DNA of 64,000 nucleotides, from NCBI GenBank assembly GCA_017548275.1, contig JAFZAH010000035.1:1-64000 (forward strand). Direction: 5' to 3'. The DNA comes from Prevotella sp. Lineage in GTDB: Bacteria > Bacteroidota > Bacteroidia > Bacteroidales > Bacteroidaceae. Below the pieces are notes generated by a model. That model was given only the letters and a program-made list of their open reading frames with translations, made no database searches and had not been told where the DNA came from. A program made the translations under genes and the position numbers. Within the stretch, counting starts at the first letter, position 1. The number at the start of each line of letters is the position of its first letter. Shown piece by piece: positions 3,922-60,768 of this stretch.

Positions 3922-4209
3922 ATCGGGTTTTCGATATCACTCATCATTTTCATGCCATTTTTCGATAAAATAGATGCGACAACACCATGTATTAACGACA
4001 TAAGGAGAGAGGGGCGGCGAAATGTGTCGTATACGTGGAACATTGAACGTTGAACGTTGAAGGTTGAACGTTGGAGTTACATACCCCGCCCCTGCCCCGC
4101 CCCTTAGAGTGGTGGGGAGTGGGCTGACGCCCTTGAGATAGTTTGATGTTATTTGCCGGACACCAATAAAAAAGTTTAGGGGTCGCATGTGAGAGTCCCC
4201 AAAACGAAT

Positions 4210-19635: not shown

Positions 19636-19808
19636 CTGAATACTTAGATATGATAAGGAGGAAAAACGAATAGGAAAGAAATTCATATTTCTTTTCTATT
19701 CCTTTATTTATATATAGAAGCCCGCTAAACAACATCAAACTATCTCAAGGGCGTCAGCCCACTCCCCACCACTCTAAGGGGCGGGGCAGGGGCGGGGTAT
19801 GTAACTCC

Positions 19809-19910
19809 AACGTTCAACCTTCCACGTTCCACGTTCCACGTTCCATGTTCCACGTTCCATGTTCCACGTTCCACGTTCAATGTTCCATGTTCCACGTTCA
19901 ATGTTCAACG
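19809..19910. repeat. R1 tandem array upstream of OMP copy B
   Basis: About 102 bp of GTTCCAC/GTTCCAT/GTTCAAC/GTTCAAT units joined as 7- and 8-mers. The equivalent array in arm A spans only about 38 bp, so the array length has changed since the duplication. Confidence 0.85.
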
Positions 19911-20022
19911 TATACGACGTTTTTCGCCGCCTCTCTCTCCTTTTGTCGCAAATACACATGTCTGTCGCATCTATTTTATCGAAAAATGGCATGAAAATGA
20001 TGAGTGATATCGAAAACCCGAT

Positions 20023-54273: not shown

Positions 54274-55334
54274 GAAAAATCTTTATTACCATGCTGGCGG
54301 CGACAGCACTGCTGCCGCTGTCAGCACAAACTATCACCCCAACATCCAGTGTTATCGACTGCGGACAGGTAGTATATCAAAGTCCTGTCACAGCACAGTT
54401 TGAATTGCTCAATGAGAGCGACAAGGCCATCTATATTTCTGACGTGCAGACCAGTTGCGGATGCACCACGGTCAATTATCCCACGGGCAGCATCCCAAAA
54501 GGCAAACCGTTTGTCATCACGGCACAGTACGATGCCAAGATGCTCGGACACTTCGAGAAATATGTCGATGTGTTCACTTCGGGCAGTGAAGAGCCGCTCA
54601 TGCTCACCATGAGAGGTGTGGTCGTGGCCGAACTGAAGGGCTATGTCGGCGAATACAACTTTGTCGTGGGACGGTTGAAGACCGATGCCCAGGATTTGCT
54701 CTACGATGATATCAACCGTGGCGAACGGCCAGTGCATGAGATTCACATCCTCAACTCTACCAGTGAAACCGTGAATCCTGTGTTCATGCACCTGCCCGAT
54801 TATCTTAAGGCCGAGGTGTCGCCTTCGACACTCGCACCGGGACAGTCGGCTGTGGCACGCCTCACGCTCGAGTCGGACAAACTGCGCGACTTTGGTCTGA
54901 CGCAGACGACCATCTATCTCGGACAATATCCCGGCGACCGCATCAGTCCTGAAAAGGAAATGGTCATTTCAACGATATTATTGCCTGATTTCACACATCT
55001 CACGGAGAATCAGTTGGCAAGGGCTCCGCAGGTGCAGGTTTCGACCTATAACCTCGATTTGGGACGTTTCGAAGGCAAAAAGAAGAAGAAGGGTTCGGTG
55101 GAGATTGAAAATACCGGTCAGACACCCCTTGAGATACGGTCGTTGCAGATGTTCACACCCGGACTTAAAGTGGAGTTGGGTACACAACGCCTTAGACCCG
55201 GAGAGAGCACGAAGTTGAAAGTCACTGCTGAACGCAATGTACTGCGTAATGTGAGAACACAACCGAGAATCCTCATGATTACCAACGACCCCACCAACCC
55301 CAAAGTCGTCATTAATATCGATGTGGAAGAGTAG
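54270..55334 (+). CDS. DUF1573 family secreted protein
   Basis: 354 residues from the ATG overlapping the macroglobulin stop codon. Signal peptide (ends LPLSAQ). DUF1573 Ig-like repeat with conserved ISDVQTSCGCTTVNYPTGSIPKGKPFVITAQYD; three tandem Ig-like (ASPM/SPD2-like) modules follow. DUF1573 proteins often act in the periplasm with unknown role. ATGA coupling with the macroglobulin suggests they are made together. Confidence 0.9.
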   Translation: MRKIFITMLAATALLPLSAQTITPTSSVIDCGQVVYQSPVTAQFELLNESDKAIYISDVQTSCGCTTVNYPTGSIPKGKPFVITAQYDAKMLGHFEKYVDVFTSGSEEPLMLTMRGVVVAELKGYVGEYNFVVGRLKTDAQDLLYDDINRGERPVHEIHILNSTSETVNPVFMHLPDYLKAEVSPSTLAPGQSAVARLTLESDKLRDFGLTQTTIYLGQYPGDRISPEKEMVISTILLPDFTHLTENQLARAPQVQVSTYNLDLGRFEGKKKKKGSVEIENTGQTPLEIRSLQMFTPGLKVELGTQRLRPGESTKLKVTAERNVLRNVRTQPRILMITNDPTNPKVVINIDVEE

Positions 55335-55335
55335 G

Positions 55336-55515
55336 ATTGAACGTTGAACATTGAACATTGAACATTGAACATTGAACGTTGACTTTAAGGTCGTTAATGC
55401 CCCTAAAGACCTTAATGGCCTTAAAGTCCTTAAAGACCCTACCATCATCAAATGTCTGAACTCCTGAACTCCCGACTTCTGAACTCCTAACAAACCTCCA
55501 CTCCTTCACTCCTAA
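55336..55515. repeat. R1, R9 and R8 repeat cluster
   Basis: 55336-55382 R1 (TTGAACATTGAACATTGAAC); 55383-55445 R9-like TTAAGGTCGTTAATG and CCTTAAAGTCCTTAAAGACC; 55453-55515 R8 (CTGAACTCCTGAACTCCCGA). Three families in a row without a gene. Confidence 0.85.
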
Positions 55516-57648: not shown

Positions 57649-58362
57649 ATGAGACGAATACTCTTATTTCTCTTTGTCGCATGGTTGACGGTTTGCACCG
57701 TCGAGGCGCGCATATATGCTGTGTGCGTGGGACTGTCAGACTATCCCGGCAAACGCAATGACCTGACCGTGAGCGACAATGACGCGCGGTCGATGAGCAA
57801 ACTGCTGAAAGATAACAGTTCCGCTCATGTGGTAAAACTTCTGACGAACCAAAATGCCACAGTCAGCAACGTGAAAAACACCATCTATCACACGTTTCTC
57901 GCCGCAGGTCCGAGCGACGATATCGTGTTCTATTTCAGCGGTCATGGTATTAAAGGCTCGTTCGTTTGTTACGACGGCATGCTCACCTATTCGTCTATTC
58001 TCTCCACAATGGGTCGCAGCCGAGCACGCAGCAAAGTGATTTATGCCGACGCATGTTTTGCTGGCGACATACGACAAAACCGCGGCAGGGCCAACAGCAA
58101 TACCCCGAAAAATGTGATGTTCTTTCTGTCATCGCGCAGCAACGAGCGGTCACAGGAATGGTACGGACATCCCAACAGCAAATTCACCGCTTTCCTCCTC
58201 GAAGGATTGCGCGGGGCTGCCGACAACGATAAAAACAGGGTGGTCACGGCCATTGAACTCTACAACTATGTAAAAAGCCGTCTCAATGCCAACTCCCGTA
58301 TCCAACACGCCGTGATGTGGGGCAATTTCGAACGCAATATGCCTCTCATGAGATGGCGATAA
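57649..58362 (+). CDS. Secreted caspase-like (C14) protease
   Basis: 237 residues. Signal peptide 1-20 (VCTVEA), then a caspase p20 core: IYAVCVGLSDYPG, catalytic His in YFSGHG (His99), catalytic Cys in YADACFAGD (Cys136), and SRSNERSQEW specificity region. The p10 part is short. Such bacterial metacaspases cleave after Arg/Lys and are usually cytoplasmic; here the signal peptide points to the periplasm. Physiological substrate unknown. Confidence 0.88.
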   Translation: MRRILLFLFVAWLTVCTVEARIYAVCVGLSDYPGKRNDLTVSDNDARSMSKLLKDNSSAHVVKLLTNQNATVSNVKNTIYHTFLAAGPSDDIVFYFSGHGIKGSFVCYDGMLTYSSILSTMGRSRARSKVIYADACFAGDIRQNRGRANSNTPKNVMFFLSSRSNERSQEWYGHPNSKFTAFLLEGLRGAADNDKNRVVTAIELYNYVKSRLNANSRIQHAVMWGNFERNMPLMRWR

Positions 58363-58551
58363 AACCACTCTGAAACCCGTCCCAACCCTCTTTAAAGGAA
58401 AGGGCGATTGGCAGAGTAATGTCTTTAACTTCTTTATCTTCTTGAACTCCACAACTAAAATACGAATAAAACGAATAAACACATCCAACCTCAAATAGAA
58501 ACATCGGAAAGGGGTAGGGGGAGTCTCTCAGGTATCTTCCCCGTCATAGGC
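58363..58551. repeat. Repeat-filled gap before the P-type ATPase
   Basis: 58377-58408 is an R2-like arm (CCCGTCCCAACCCTCTTTAA/AGGAAAGGGCG); 58418-58450 reads TAATGTCTTTAACTTCTTTA (R9); 58500-58530 is R2 (CGGAAAGGGGTAGGGGGAGT), which occupies the place expected for the ATPase start codon. Confidence 0.75.
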
Positions 58552-60768
58552 ATGATGTGCGCCGTGTGTAGCGCTACCGTCGAGCGGAAACTGTCTTCGC
58601 TCGAGGGCGTCCATGCCGTGTCGGTCAGTCTGCCCTCGCGCACAGCGATGGTCGATTACGACCCTGAGGTCATTACGCCTGAGCAGATGAAGAAGGAATT
58701 GACGGTTGTTGGTTACGATATGGTCATCGAGGCCGACCGGAGCACCGAGGAGATTGAACATCGCAGCATGGTGCTCCTCCGCCGCAAGGTCATCCTGTCA
58801 TGGGTCTTCGCGCTGCTCACGATGTCTATCTCGATGGGGTGGATACATATCGGCAATCGTGATGTGTCAAACCAGACGATGCTCATCATCGCCTTGGCCA
58901 ACCTCGTGTATTGTGGTCGGCAGTTTTATGTTAACGCATGGCAGCAACTGCGCCATCTCTCCGCTGGCATGGATACATTGGTCGCCCTGTCCACTTGTGT
59001 GTCATTCTTGTTCAGCGCGTTCAACACGTTCTTTGGCGAACAGGTCTGGGGCAGTCGCGGCATCGAGTGGCATACCTATTTCGACGCATCCGTCATGATT
59101 ATCACCTTTGTTCTCACGGGCAGGTTGTTGGAGGAACGTGCGAAAAACAGCACGGCCTCTGCCATCAGAGCACTGATGGGACTGGCTCCCAAAACCGCCC
59201 GTGTGGTCAACACTGACGGCTCGGTCGATGATGTGCCCGTCAGCACTCTGACCAAGGGCGACGTCATAGAAGTAAGTGCTGGACAGAAAATCCCGGTTGA
59301 CGGAAAAACCATAGTGGAGCAAGGGGCAAGGTGCAAGGAGCAGGAGAATAGTCATGAGGGGCAAGGAGCAAGGTGCAAGGAGCAAGAGAATACCTCTGCG
59401 TTTGTAGGGGCGGTGCACCCGTGCCCGCCCGCACGAGCGGGAGCGAGTTCAACAAGTGCCAATGTTCATAATGACAACGTTCAATGTTCAACCTCCAACG
59501 TTCCACGTTCCACGTTCAATGTTCCACGTATTTCAGTTGATGAGTCGATGATTTCCGGCGAACCCGCTCCCGTGGAGAAACACGATGGCGACAAGGTCTT
59601 TGCTGGTACTATCGTCAAGGAGGGCACTCTGCGCTTCCGTGCCGAGGCGGTGGGCGAGAAAACCGTTTTGGCCAATATCATCCGCATGGTGCAACAGGCG
59701 CAAAACTCCAAGGCCCCTGTGCAGCGGACCGTTGACCGCGTTGCGCTCATTTTCGTTCCCGCAGTGCTGTGTCTGTCGTTGCTCACGTTTATCGTATGGT
59801 TTATCGTGGGCGGTCAACCCGCTTTACCGCGCGCCATTCTCTCAGCCGTGTCAGTGCTCGTCATCGCCTGTCCCTGCGCCATGGGGTTGGCCACGCCTAC
59901 CGCCCTGATGGTGGGCATCGGCAAGGCGGCACAGCACAATATCCTCATCAAAGACGCCACGGCACTCGAACAAATCCGCCGCATCACCGCCCTCGTCATC
60001 GACAAGACCGGCACATTGACGGAGATTACAGATGAGCAAGACGCAGCGTGCAAGGCGCAAGAAAATACCCCATCACACATAGTGGCGGCGCCCCCTTGCC
60101 CGCCCGAACGAGCTGCAGCGAGTCCAACAAATGAAGAAAATCAGGATCAAACCAACCATAACCCCCAATGTTCAACGTTCAACGTTCAACGTTCCACGTT
60201 CAATGTTCAACGTGAATCCCTCAAGCCCCATGCTGCCGAGGCCATTTCGATGTTGCATGAAGCGGGAGTCGAGGTATATATGATGAGCGGCGATGTGGAG
60301 GAACATGCCCGTTATTGGGCAGAACAGGCAGGCATACGTCATTATCAGAGCCGTGTGATGCCCCAGGACAAGGAAGACCTCGTGCGTCGTCTTCAGACTG
60401 AGGGAAAGGTCGTGGCGATGGCGGGCGACGGCATCAATGACACACAGGCTTTGGCTGCCGCTGATGTGAGCATCGCCATGGGACAGGGTACCGACATTGC
60501 CATGGATGTGGCGCAAATGACGCTCATGGGCTCTGACCTGCGGCGCATCCCCGAGGCCATCTCTCTTTCACGGCGCACTGTCAACATGATTCATCAAAAC
60601 CTCTTTTGGGCGTTTATCTACAATATCATCTGCATCCCATTGGCTGCCGGGGTCCTTCGTATCTTCGGCATCGATTTCCAAATCACACCTATGTGGGCCA
60701 GTGCGCTCATGGCGTTCTCCAGCGTCAGTGTCGTACTCAATAGTCTCAGACTAAAATTAAACAATTAA
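58552..60768 (+). CDS. Copper-type P-type ATPase with two repeat-derived insertions
   Basis: 738 residues. HMA domain with CAVC metal motif, membrane helices, A-domain SGEP (335-338), CPC motif (440-442, typical of Cu+ exporters), phosphorylated Asp in DKTGTLT (484-490), SGD and GDGIND (625-630). Residues 257-326 are R3-spacer-R1 sequence just before the SGEP loop. After DKTGTLT, residues 495-554 are the same composite and only about 65 residues separate it from the P-domain, where the ATP-binding N-domain would need over 100; no HP motif is visible. The FPVIGMMC start region extends upstream without a start codon. Probably a damaged or decaying gene; function doubtful. Confidence 0.8.
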   Translation: MMCAVCSATVERKLSSLEGVHAVSVSLPSRTAMVDYDPEVITPEQMKKELTVVGYDMVIEADRSTEEIEHRSMVLLRRKVILSWVFALLTMSISMGWIHIGNRDVSNQTMLIIALANLVYCGRQFYVNAWQQLRHLSAGMDTLVALSTCVSFLFSAFNTFFGEQVWGSRGIEWHTYFDASVMIITFVLTGRLLEERAKNSTASAIRALMGLAPKTARVVNTDGSVDDVPVSTLTKGDVIEVSAGQKIPVDGKTIVEQGARCKEQENSHEGQGARCKEQENTSAFVGAVHPCPPARAGASSTSANVHNDNVQCSTSNVPRSTFNVPRISVDESMISGEPAPVEKHDGDKVFAGTIVKEGTLRFRAEAVGEKTVLANIIRMVQQAQNSKAPVQRTVDRVALIFVPAVLCLSLLTFIVWFIVGGQPALPRAILSAVSVLVIACPCAMGLATPTALMVGIGKAAQHNILIKDATALEQIRRITALVIDKTGTLTEITDEQDAACKAQENTPSHIVAAPPCPPERAAASPTNEENQDQTNHNPQCSTFNVQRSTFNVQRESLKPHAAEAISMLHEAGVEVYMMSGDVEEHARYWAEQAGIRHYQSRVMPQDKEDLVRRLQTEGKVVAMAGDGINDTQALAAADVSIAMGQGTDIAMDVAQMTLMGSDLRRIPEAISLSRRTVNMIHQNLFWAFIYNIICIPLAAGVLRIFGIDFQITPMWASALMAFSSVSVVLNSLRLKLNN
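59320..59529 (+). repeat. In-frame composite repeat insertion 1 (R3, spacer, R1)
   Basis: R3 (CAAGGGGCAAGGTGCAAGGA, twice, to about 59391), a spacer GGGGCGGTGCACCCGTGCCC with ACGAGCGGGAGCGAGTTCAA (to about 59462), then R1 (AACGTTCAATGTTCAACCTC to 59529). 210 bp, a multiple of three, with no stop codon. Encodes 70 residues in the actuator loop. Confidence 0.85.
60034..60213 (+). repeat. In-frame composite repeat insertion 2 (R3, spacer, R1)
   Basis: Degenerate R3 (GAGCAAGACGCAGCGTGCAA), the same spacer (GGCGGCGCCCCCTTGCCC, GAACGAGCTGCAGCGAGTCC), then R1 (GTTCAACGTTCAACGTTCCA). 180 bp, in frame, same orientation and order as insertion 1, and R1 read in the same frame (NVQRSTFNVQ). Confidence 0.85.

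Follow-up and report, generated by a model that had tools for sequence, protein, structure and literature searches.

Dispersed-repeat composites lying in frame within a P-type ATPase gene of a Prevotella genome

How can small repeats of the kind that stand between genes come to lie within an enzyme gene while its reading frame stays open? The question is raised by a gene for a copper-type P1B ATPase in the genome of a Prevotella sp. (assembly GCA_017548275.1), whose genus is a common inhabitant of gut and rumen, where it is abundant. The gene lies in a stretch of 64,000 nucleotides (contig JAFZAH010000035.1, positions 1 to 64,000), which is called the window below. An original prediction, made from the letters of the window alone, held that two segments of the encoded protein are not ATPase sequence and that each represents a repeat composite, R3-spacer-R1. 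Judged from sequence comparison, it is likely that dispersed repeats were taken up in length-tolerant loops of this ATPase and of other genes, where they survive as near-neutral ballast.

Two composites in the ATPase frame and their dispersed modules

The open reading frame (ORF) of the ATPase contains no internal stop and carries the Pfam domains HMA, E1-E2_ATPase and Hydrolase (HAD), while it matches the NCBIfam model TIGR01511 for copper-translocating P-type ATPases with 493.9 bits (cut-off 397). The motifs CxxC, SGE, CPC, DKTGT, SGD and GDGIND are found at residues 3, 335, 440, 484, 579 and 625, respectively. Site 1 is composed of two R3 heptad arrays, a palindrome, a spacer and an R1 heptad array, and site 2 of a single degenerate R3, a degenerate copy of the palindrome, an Asn-rich spacer and R1 (Table 1). 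The palindrome possesses both a GTAG tag and a short stem-loop, and is referred to here as the repetitive extragenic palindrome (REP) module. As predicted, the repeat search found the modules in the same order, orientation and frame at both sites; a stretch of 103 nt is 76% identical between them, and the R1 parts reach up to 92%. The prediction had also stressed that the inserts are multiples of three in length and free of stops. The absence of internal stops was borne out, while divisibility by three carries no weight, because the inserts lie in an ORF.

The evidence that the two segments are dispersed repeats comes from the genome and from the homologues alike. The DNA of site 1 has at least 68 matches in the genome at E ≤ 1e-3, a figure that counts the query and site 2 and comes from scoring 40 of 161 candidates; when translated, the same DNA has 114 at E ≤ 10. 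The alignment with homologues that the prediction had proposed as a check gave the same answer, the fetched ATPase sequences being without the two inserts of the window. In a search across the genus, the R3-REP part alone has matches at E ≤ 1e-6 in 15 of 299 genomes of the genus, the own genome included.

Arrays were counted in 1,095,144 bases, namely the window plus 60 stretches of the same genome (G000), a sample that is enriched because 23 of the 60 stretches (20 + 3) were placed on repeat matches. Period-7 arrays numbered 110 in this sample, against 3, 27, 29 and 3 at periods 6, 8, 9 and 10, and 62 were found at period 14, the harmonic of 7. The repeats are thus multi-copy in the genome and are found both inside and between genes. 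Those between genes comprise single modules, R3+REP, R2+R1 and inverted REP pairs, the latter in L170 (13709+/13787-), L186 (5427+/5516-) and L227 (11557+/11643-). The original prediction went further, holding that the composite itself fills intergenic gaps. The genome search it called for confirmed the dispersal of the modules, but the complete R3-REP-R1 composite was not seen between genes in the genome matches and sampled stretches, only inside genes. When the sample was scanned strictly for R3 with R1 after it on the same strand at a distance of up to 260 bases, ATPase site 1 was the only occurrence, and by reading the same order is also present at site 2 and in a nonribosomal peptide synthetase (NRPS) gene; since the strict scan missed these two, degenerate intergenic copies could be missed as well. 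The NRPS copy was considered as a further R3-REP-R1 composite and rejected, its DNA showing an R2-type palindrome in the middle instead.

Table 1. Features of the ATPase locus, of the intergenic arrays in the window and of a further repeat-carrying gene
Feature	Position	Strand	Basis
P1B copper-type ATPase gene without N-domain	58552..60768	+	ORF, 738 aa; Pfam, NCBIfam, motifs
G-rich, R2-like stretch (end approximate) at the position of the relatives' start codon	58507..58532	+	single copy in window
Site 1, in-frame composite insert (~72 aa), actuator-domain loop between PVDG and VDES	~59314..59529	+	repeat search, homologue alignment
R3 heptad array (GCAAGGA type), copy 1, site 1	59316..59350	+	repeat family D3
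R3 heptad array, copy 2, site 1	59358..59392	+	repeat family D3
GTAG-type palindrome (REP module), site 1	59404..59430	+	26/27 consensus positions; hairpin in fold
R1 heptad array (GTTCAAC/GTTCCAC), site 1	59478..59529	+	period-7 scan
Site 2, in-frame composite insert in the DKTGTLT-LKPHA linker	~60033..60213	+	repeat search, homologue alignment
Degenerate REP module, site 2	60079..60105	+	23/27 consensus positions
R1 heptad array, site 2	60163..60213	+	period-7 scan
Intergenic R1 array, family of the ATPase R1	19793..19923	+	period-7 repeat search
Intergenic R1 array, flanks as in the 19.8 kb copy, inverted	4019..4088	-	repeat search, DNA reading
Intergenic R1 array	55321..55399	-	repeat search
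DUF6057 membrane protein, three R1 inserts	L348:1178-3013 (G000:C23:186677-188512)		

Two of the intergenic R1 arrays belong to a longer intergenic element, present in the window in two inverted copies (3960-4180 and 19640-19950) with conserved flanks and an internal R1 array of varying length, which resembles a miniature inverted-repeat transposable element (MITE) carrying a minisatellite. Directly upstream of the ATPase lies what we take to be a caspase-like gene (57649-58362, motifs SGHG and DACFAG).

Loop lengths, the missing N-domain and selection on the ATPase

When searched with the ATPase protein, 33 of 60 relatives had a match at E ≤ 1e-30, as did 199 of 398 genomes of the genus at E ≤ 1e-60. 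A contig search yielded 142 relatives, and the 80 best were retained. Segment lengths were counted in the 136 fetched homologues with both segments readable, the broken L154 being left out. The N-domain is absent in 124 of these, including all from the genus search, as only 38-98 residues (98 in the window) run from DKTGTLT through SGD, against 147-176 residues in the other 12, all of which come from other families of the order. Merging 13 duplicate pairs reduced the 124 to 111 distinct sequences, window included. A 747-aa frame of the genus genome G010, which is 45% identical to the ATPase and stands outside the fetched set, may be a full-length paralogue. Since so many homologues are likewise without it, the N-domain was, on this sequence comparison, missing before insert 2 arrived. 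The prediction had placed insert 2 where the ATP-binding N-domain should follow DKTGTLT; its position is confirmed, but insert 2 as a replacement of that domain in this gene is ruled out by the N-domain-less homologues. These copper-type P1B ATPases form a large set in the Prevotella group, which keeps the P-domain motifs (e.g., L121, L147 and the window at 59980-60300), and no report of a P-type ATPase without an N-domain was found in the open-licence literature, among the matches listed.

Both insertion sites are loops of variable length. Among the 111 distinct sequences, site 1 measures 22-29 residues in 98 and more than 29 in 13, while site 2 measures up to 54 residues in 94 and more than 54 in 17. 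The long loops are scattered over the tree, e.g., L063 is long and its neighbour L064 short, as are L101 and L136, respectively. With a line for the lag-7 match of 0.75, which was chosen after the values were seen, three of the 13 long site-1 segments (window, L063 and L066) and five of the 17 long site-2 segments (window, L077, L078, L098 and L109) reach it, and among the short segments 0.8 is attained by none of the 123 at site 1 and by two of the 103 at site 2. The idea that all long ATPase loops are heptad arrays was not borne out by this test. Two inserts of relatives were tested for dispersal, and both have multiple matches in their own genomes, queries included (57 for L063 and 28 for L078). 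In addition, L101 carries two inverted R2-type palindromes in frame in the P-domain, between LKPHA and SGD (L101:5660-5785).

The recurrence of long inserts raises the possibility that they are adaptive, the repeat peptides serving as linkers for regulation or interaction and, notably, filling the gap of the missing N-domain. The same two loops are indeed lengthened in several lineages. R3 lies in genes mostly in the orientation whose product is the hydrophilic KEQGARS, to judge by reading and apart from short stretches in reverse in MetG and an oxidoreductase tail, and REP is read in a single frame at both ATPase sites, in a kinase and in a ketoacyl synthase. However, the peptides vary between lineages, and the commonest site-2 segment, shared by 61 of the 111 distinct sequences, has 53 residues, so the site can do without a long insert. 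Adaptation is therefore an unlikely account of the inserts, although it fares best among the alternatives.

Decay of the gene by repeat bombardment, which the original prediction had offered as one of two possibilities, would make the ATPase a pseudogene and its open frame a passing accident. It could appeal to the two inserts together with the loss of the usual start codon, and the start region is the single damaged feature of this gene. The first ATG, GTG or TTG of the frame falls within the HMA motif, and the HMA match opens at profile position 7. The relative L143 starts with MKRPFPVIG, whereas in the window and in L141 a usual start codon is not evident before the ATG in the HMA motif. 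An R2 repeat had been predicted to cover this region. The G-rich stretch does stand at the relatives' start, but no second copy of it (58507-58525) exists in the window at up to 3 mismatches, and its likeness to R2 was judged by eye.

The rest of the gene speaks against decay. Every catalytic motif sought is present, and the sister L098/L141, also without the usual start, is conserved as well. Outside the inserts, the NG86 ratio of nonsynonymous to synonymous substitution rates (dN/dS) of the window is 0.068 against L141 (623 codons), 0.069 against L144, 0.093 against L143, 0.151 against L145 and 0.114 against L146, values that are rough because dS is near saturation. Silent sites were saturated for L142 and L147. 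The lowest value is near the 0.077-0.099 found among the pairs of L141, L143 and L144. When L143 and L144 serve as outgroups, the branch of the window shows no excess of amino-acid change (11 amino-acid and 30 silent changes, against 12 and 50 in the sister; Fisher p = 0.47). The ATPase core is under purifying selection. With like inserts also present in MetG and Lgt, the gene is, as far as its sequence tells, not visibly decaying, and decay is improbable.

In-frame repeats in other genes and their likely origin

Repeats in frame are not confined to the ATPase. Seventeen of the 110 period-7 arrays lie inside ORFs of at least 150 aa, four of which (L169:17904, L185, L188 and L224) were judged by reading to be spurious ORFs or false N-terminal extensions. 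With 84% of the sample covered by ORFs, genes contain fewer arrays than their share. The 13 credible arrays lie in eight genes, encoding the ATPase, TopB (topoisomerase III), the NRPS (which has a reductase), MetG, GH43, GH3, Lgt and an AMP-binding protein, with two inserts each in the NRPS and GH3. Further in-frame repeats are carried by the ketoacyl synthase, a kinase-FGE protein, CobT and the oxidoreductase tail, as well as by a DEAD helicase with two R3 and DUF6057 with three R1 inserts; four entries read in a wrong frame were disregarded.

The clearest case outside the ATPase is MetG, where a net insert of 19 aa is absent from 29 other aligned homologues. Beside the site, the homologue L240 has a different insert of about 22 residues, and L242 and L249 have a few extra residues. 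In eight further metG loci a match shorter by 57 or 60 nt indicates that the insert is absent, and the DNA of the site was read in seven of them. One locus, L346 (G394:C140:1538-3451), is 97% identical over residues 1-657 to the MetG of the window's genome and has an empty site; it is a second MetG in G394, perhaps owing to a strain mixture in that assembly. A fragment of a 59%-identical MetG (L347) was set aside. The 57 net bases of the insert bring in a forward and a reverse R3 arm that fold back on each other (z -3.6 against shuffles). The linker of CobT is variable among the aligned loci (23 of 24, L275 having dropped out). As for DUF6057, two of the three loops are clean period-7 DNA in the relative G022 (lag-7 0.92 and 1.0). 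The runs of G019, whose gene is divided over two contigs at the middle loop, are weaker (0.79 and 0.67).

These genes also bear on two further explanations. Ordinary slippage of local simple sequence, with no insertion of a dispersed element, could explain that tandem arrays change by whole units, as in the 42 nt, equal to two 21-nt turns, by which L077 and L078 differ at site 2, and it would suit the many long loops that are not evident period-7 arrays. It is very improbable, as R3, REP and R1 belong to separate, unrelated families, each having copies elsewhere in the genome, and as MetG possesses both R3 arms, while the 97% identical copy has neither. Least credible of all is an artefact, in which a draft assembly spliced repeats into genes: the draft state of the genome and the arrays near contig starts would allow it, but Pfam matches continue on either side of the insert in seven proteins (ketoacyl synthase, NRPS, MetG, kinase-FGE, GH3, CobT and DUF6057), the two ATPase copies differ from each other, and in assemblies of other species these ATPase and DUF6057 loops are occupied by other repeats.

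Uptake of dispersed repeats into tolerant loops thus remains the preferred explanation, and the heptad period offers a simple route. As 7 is prime to 3, an array without stops on a given strand can be read through there in any of the three frames. Arrays of GTTCAAC and CTCAAAC are open in 3/3 forward frames and closed in all reverse frames, and those of GTTCCAC and GCAAGGA are open in both directions. The phase of insertion and changes by three units would then be irrelevant to the frame. We propose that resident repeats reach coding loops, that selection purges copies which bring stops or fall in folded cores, and that hydrophilic repeat peptides may persist in loops and linkers as near-neutral ballast. 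In the ATPase, two length-tolerant loops, before VDES and in the linker after DKTGTLT, would have taken up composites of R3, REP, spacer and R1 in this way. A selective removal of stop codons from the ORF copies of REP, suggested by the TAA in the intergenic GAGTTAAAC tail, was rejected, as copies without TAA exist elsewhere.

The spread of the arrays is the least certain step. Copying and slippage, for which foldback structure and microhomology would provide the seeds, are the probable route; copying or strand switching is suggested by the foldback in some inserts and by the MetG junction. Besides MetG, the inserts of L063 (z -5.1) and L101 (z -9.9) fold better than shuffled sequences. A transposase is a possible spreading agent. 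A REP-associated tyrosine transposase (RAYT) was considered as the mobiliser and found no support in this 87% complete genome: at the one Y1_Tnp match found, L168 (G000:C36:119113-119451), the scan showed no GTAG REP in 3,339 bases. By eye, the L168 match is flanked by a different palindrome (GCCCTGAAAGGGC type).

Several observations weigh against the uptake of repeats as near-neutral ballast. No mobilising enzyme tied to these repeats was found in the genome, which is a draft (87% complete, 56 contigs) with repeats near contig starts: in six of 37 stretches (L189-L225, of which 36 begin at a contig end and L215 does not) a period-7 array is located no more than 120 bases from the first base, so the repeats may break the assembly. 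The whole window composites fold no better than shuffles (z -0.02 and -1.06), nor does the L078 insert clearly do so (z -1.7); foldback of the whole composite is thus unsupported for the window copies, where the hairpin is confined to the REP module. The majority of the long ATPase loops are not evidently period-7 arrays, and among the four closest DUF6057 relatives, G020 and G028 have no evident repeat at the loops. Homologues were aligned for four genes (ATPase, MetG, CobT and DUF6057), and in the remaining ones the repeats are putative inserts. Finally, loss of the native start codon could have lowered the function of the ATPase, and the dN/dS values are only approximate.

A broader reading is more tentative. 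A few relatives have dispersed or period-7 repeats of other kinds in these ATPase or DUF6057 loops, and the recurrence of different repeats at the same loops is the most surprising part of these results. It is conceivable, though we would not favour it at present, that Prevotella-group genomes possess a phase-neutral loop diversifier, in which species-specific period-7 families are repeatedly written into the same flexible loops, the recurrent sites being the two ATPase loops and the DUF6057 loops.

Meaning and comparison with known systems

If these interpretations are true, in-frame invasion by small repeats extends to Prevotella and to the core genes MetG, Lgt and TopB, and a period prime to three gives a simple reason why heptad arrays are suited to it. 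The inserts would also serve as natural insertion experiments that map permissive loops. Moreover, the existence of many copper-type P-ATPases without an ATP-binding domain raises the question of their phosphorylation. The original prediction considered such a repeat system undescribed. No description of repeat-invaded genes in Prevotella was found in the literature, among the matches listed, but the class of finding is already known, since repeats in coding regions have been reported in other phyla (PMC3733652, PMC2229807).

The ATPase resembles CopA-type P1B ATPases (TIGR01511) in its HMA domain and its CPC, DKTGT and GDGxND motifs, and differs from them in that the fetched Prevotella-group homologues are without the N-domain. 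Within the Bacteroidales, the accessible part of the report on BrickBuilt of Porphyromonas gingivalis describes a MITE with a minisatellite of 23-nt units, located between genes (PMC4596501). The repeats analysed here are likewise a Bacteroidales repeat element, with tandem units within mobile flanks; unlike them, BrickBuilt has 23-nt units and is intergenic.

Heptamer repeats are known from other bacteria as well. From what is available of these studies, TAACTGA heptamer sets in ORFs lie mainly at protein ends or in hypothetical proteins (PMC4679880), and G-rich heptamers are present in Xanthomonas and Nostoc (PMC4692102). The arrays described here are similar in being dispersed period-7 tandem arrays with orientation-dependent stops, some of them in ORFs. 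Unlike TAACTGA, they lie inside conserved enzymes and, in places, at the same loops across species.

The REP module is comparable to GTAG REPs, which, as far as the accessible part of the survey goes, occur in Proteobacteria, Cyanobacteria, Chloroflexi and the Planctomycetes-Verrucomicrobia-Chlamydiae (PVC) group, with only CGTC repeats in Bacteroidetes; the same part reports that in several phyla GTAG and CGTC REPs are also located within ORFs, a number of which hold two inserts (PMC3733652). Our module also starts with GTAG, forms a hairpin, occurs in inverted intergenic pairs and lies inside ORFs. It may depart from GTAG REP systems in one respect, as no RAYT flanked by the same REP was seen, with one Y1_Tnp locus found in the 87% complete genome.

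The closest parallel is with the Rickettsia palindromic elements (RPEs), which have counterparts in Wolbachia. Like RPEs, the repeats here are multi-copy, are both intergenic and in frame within genes, and have homologues without the insert, as shown for the ATPase and MetG. In the accessible part of the work on RPEs, these are small dispersed repeats of 105-146 bp with a stem-loop structure, found between genes and fused in frame in conserved genes, and the product of one such gene, gmk, is translated and active (PMC2229807). The likeness is one of features, and it has limits: heptad arrays with a separate palindrome, in several families per genome, stand in place of the stem-loops, and the whole window composite, unlike an RPE, is not one long-stem palindrome (z -0.02 and -1.06). 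In line with the second possibility that the original prediction had named, the inserts of the ATPase look tolerated, as RPEs are, and those of the other genes look alike.

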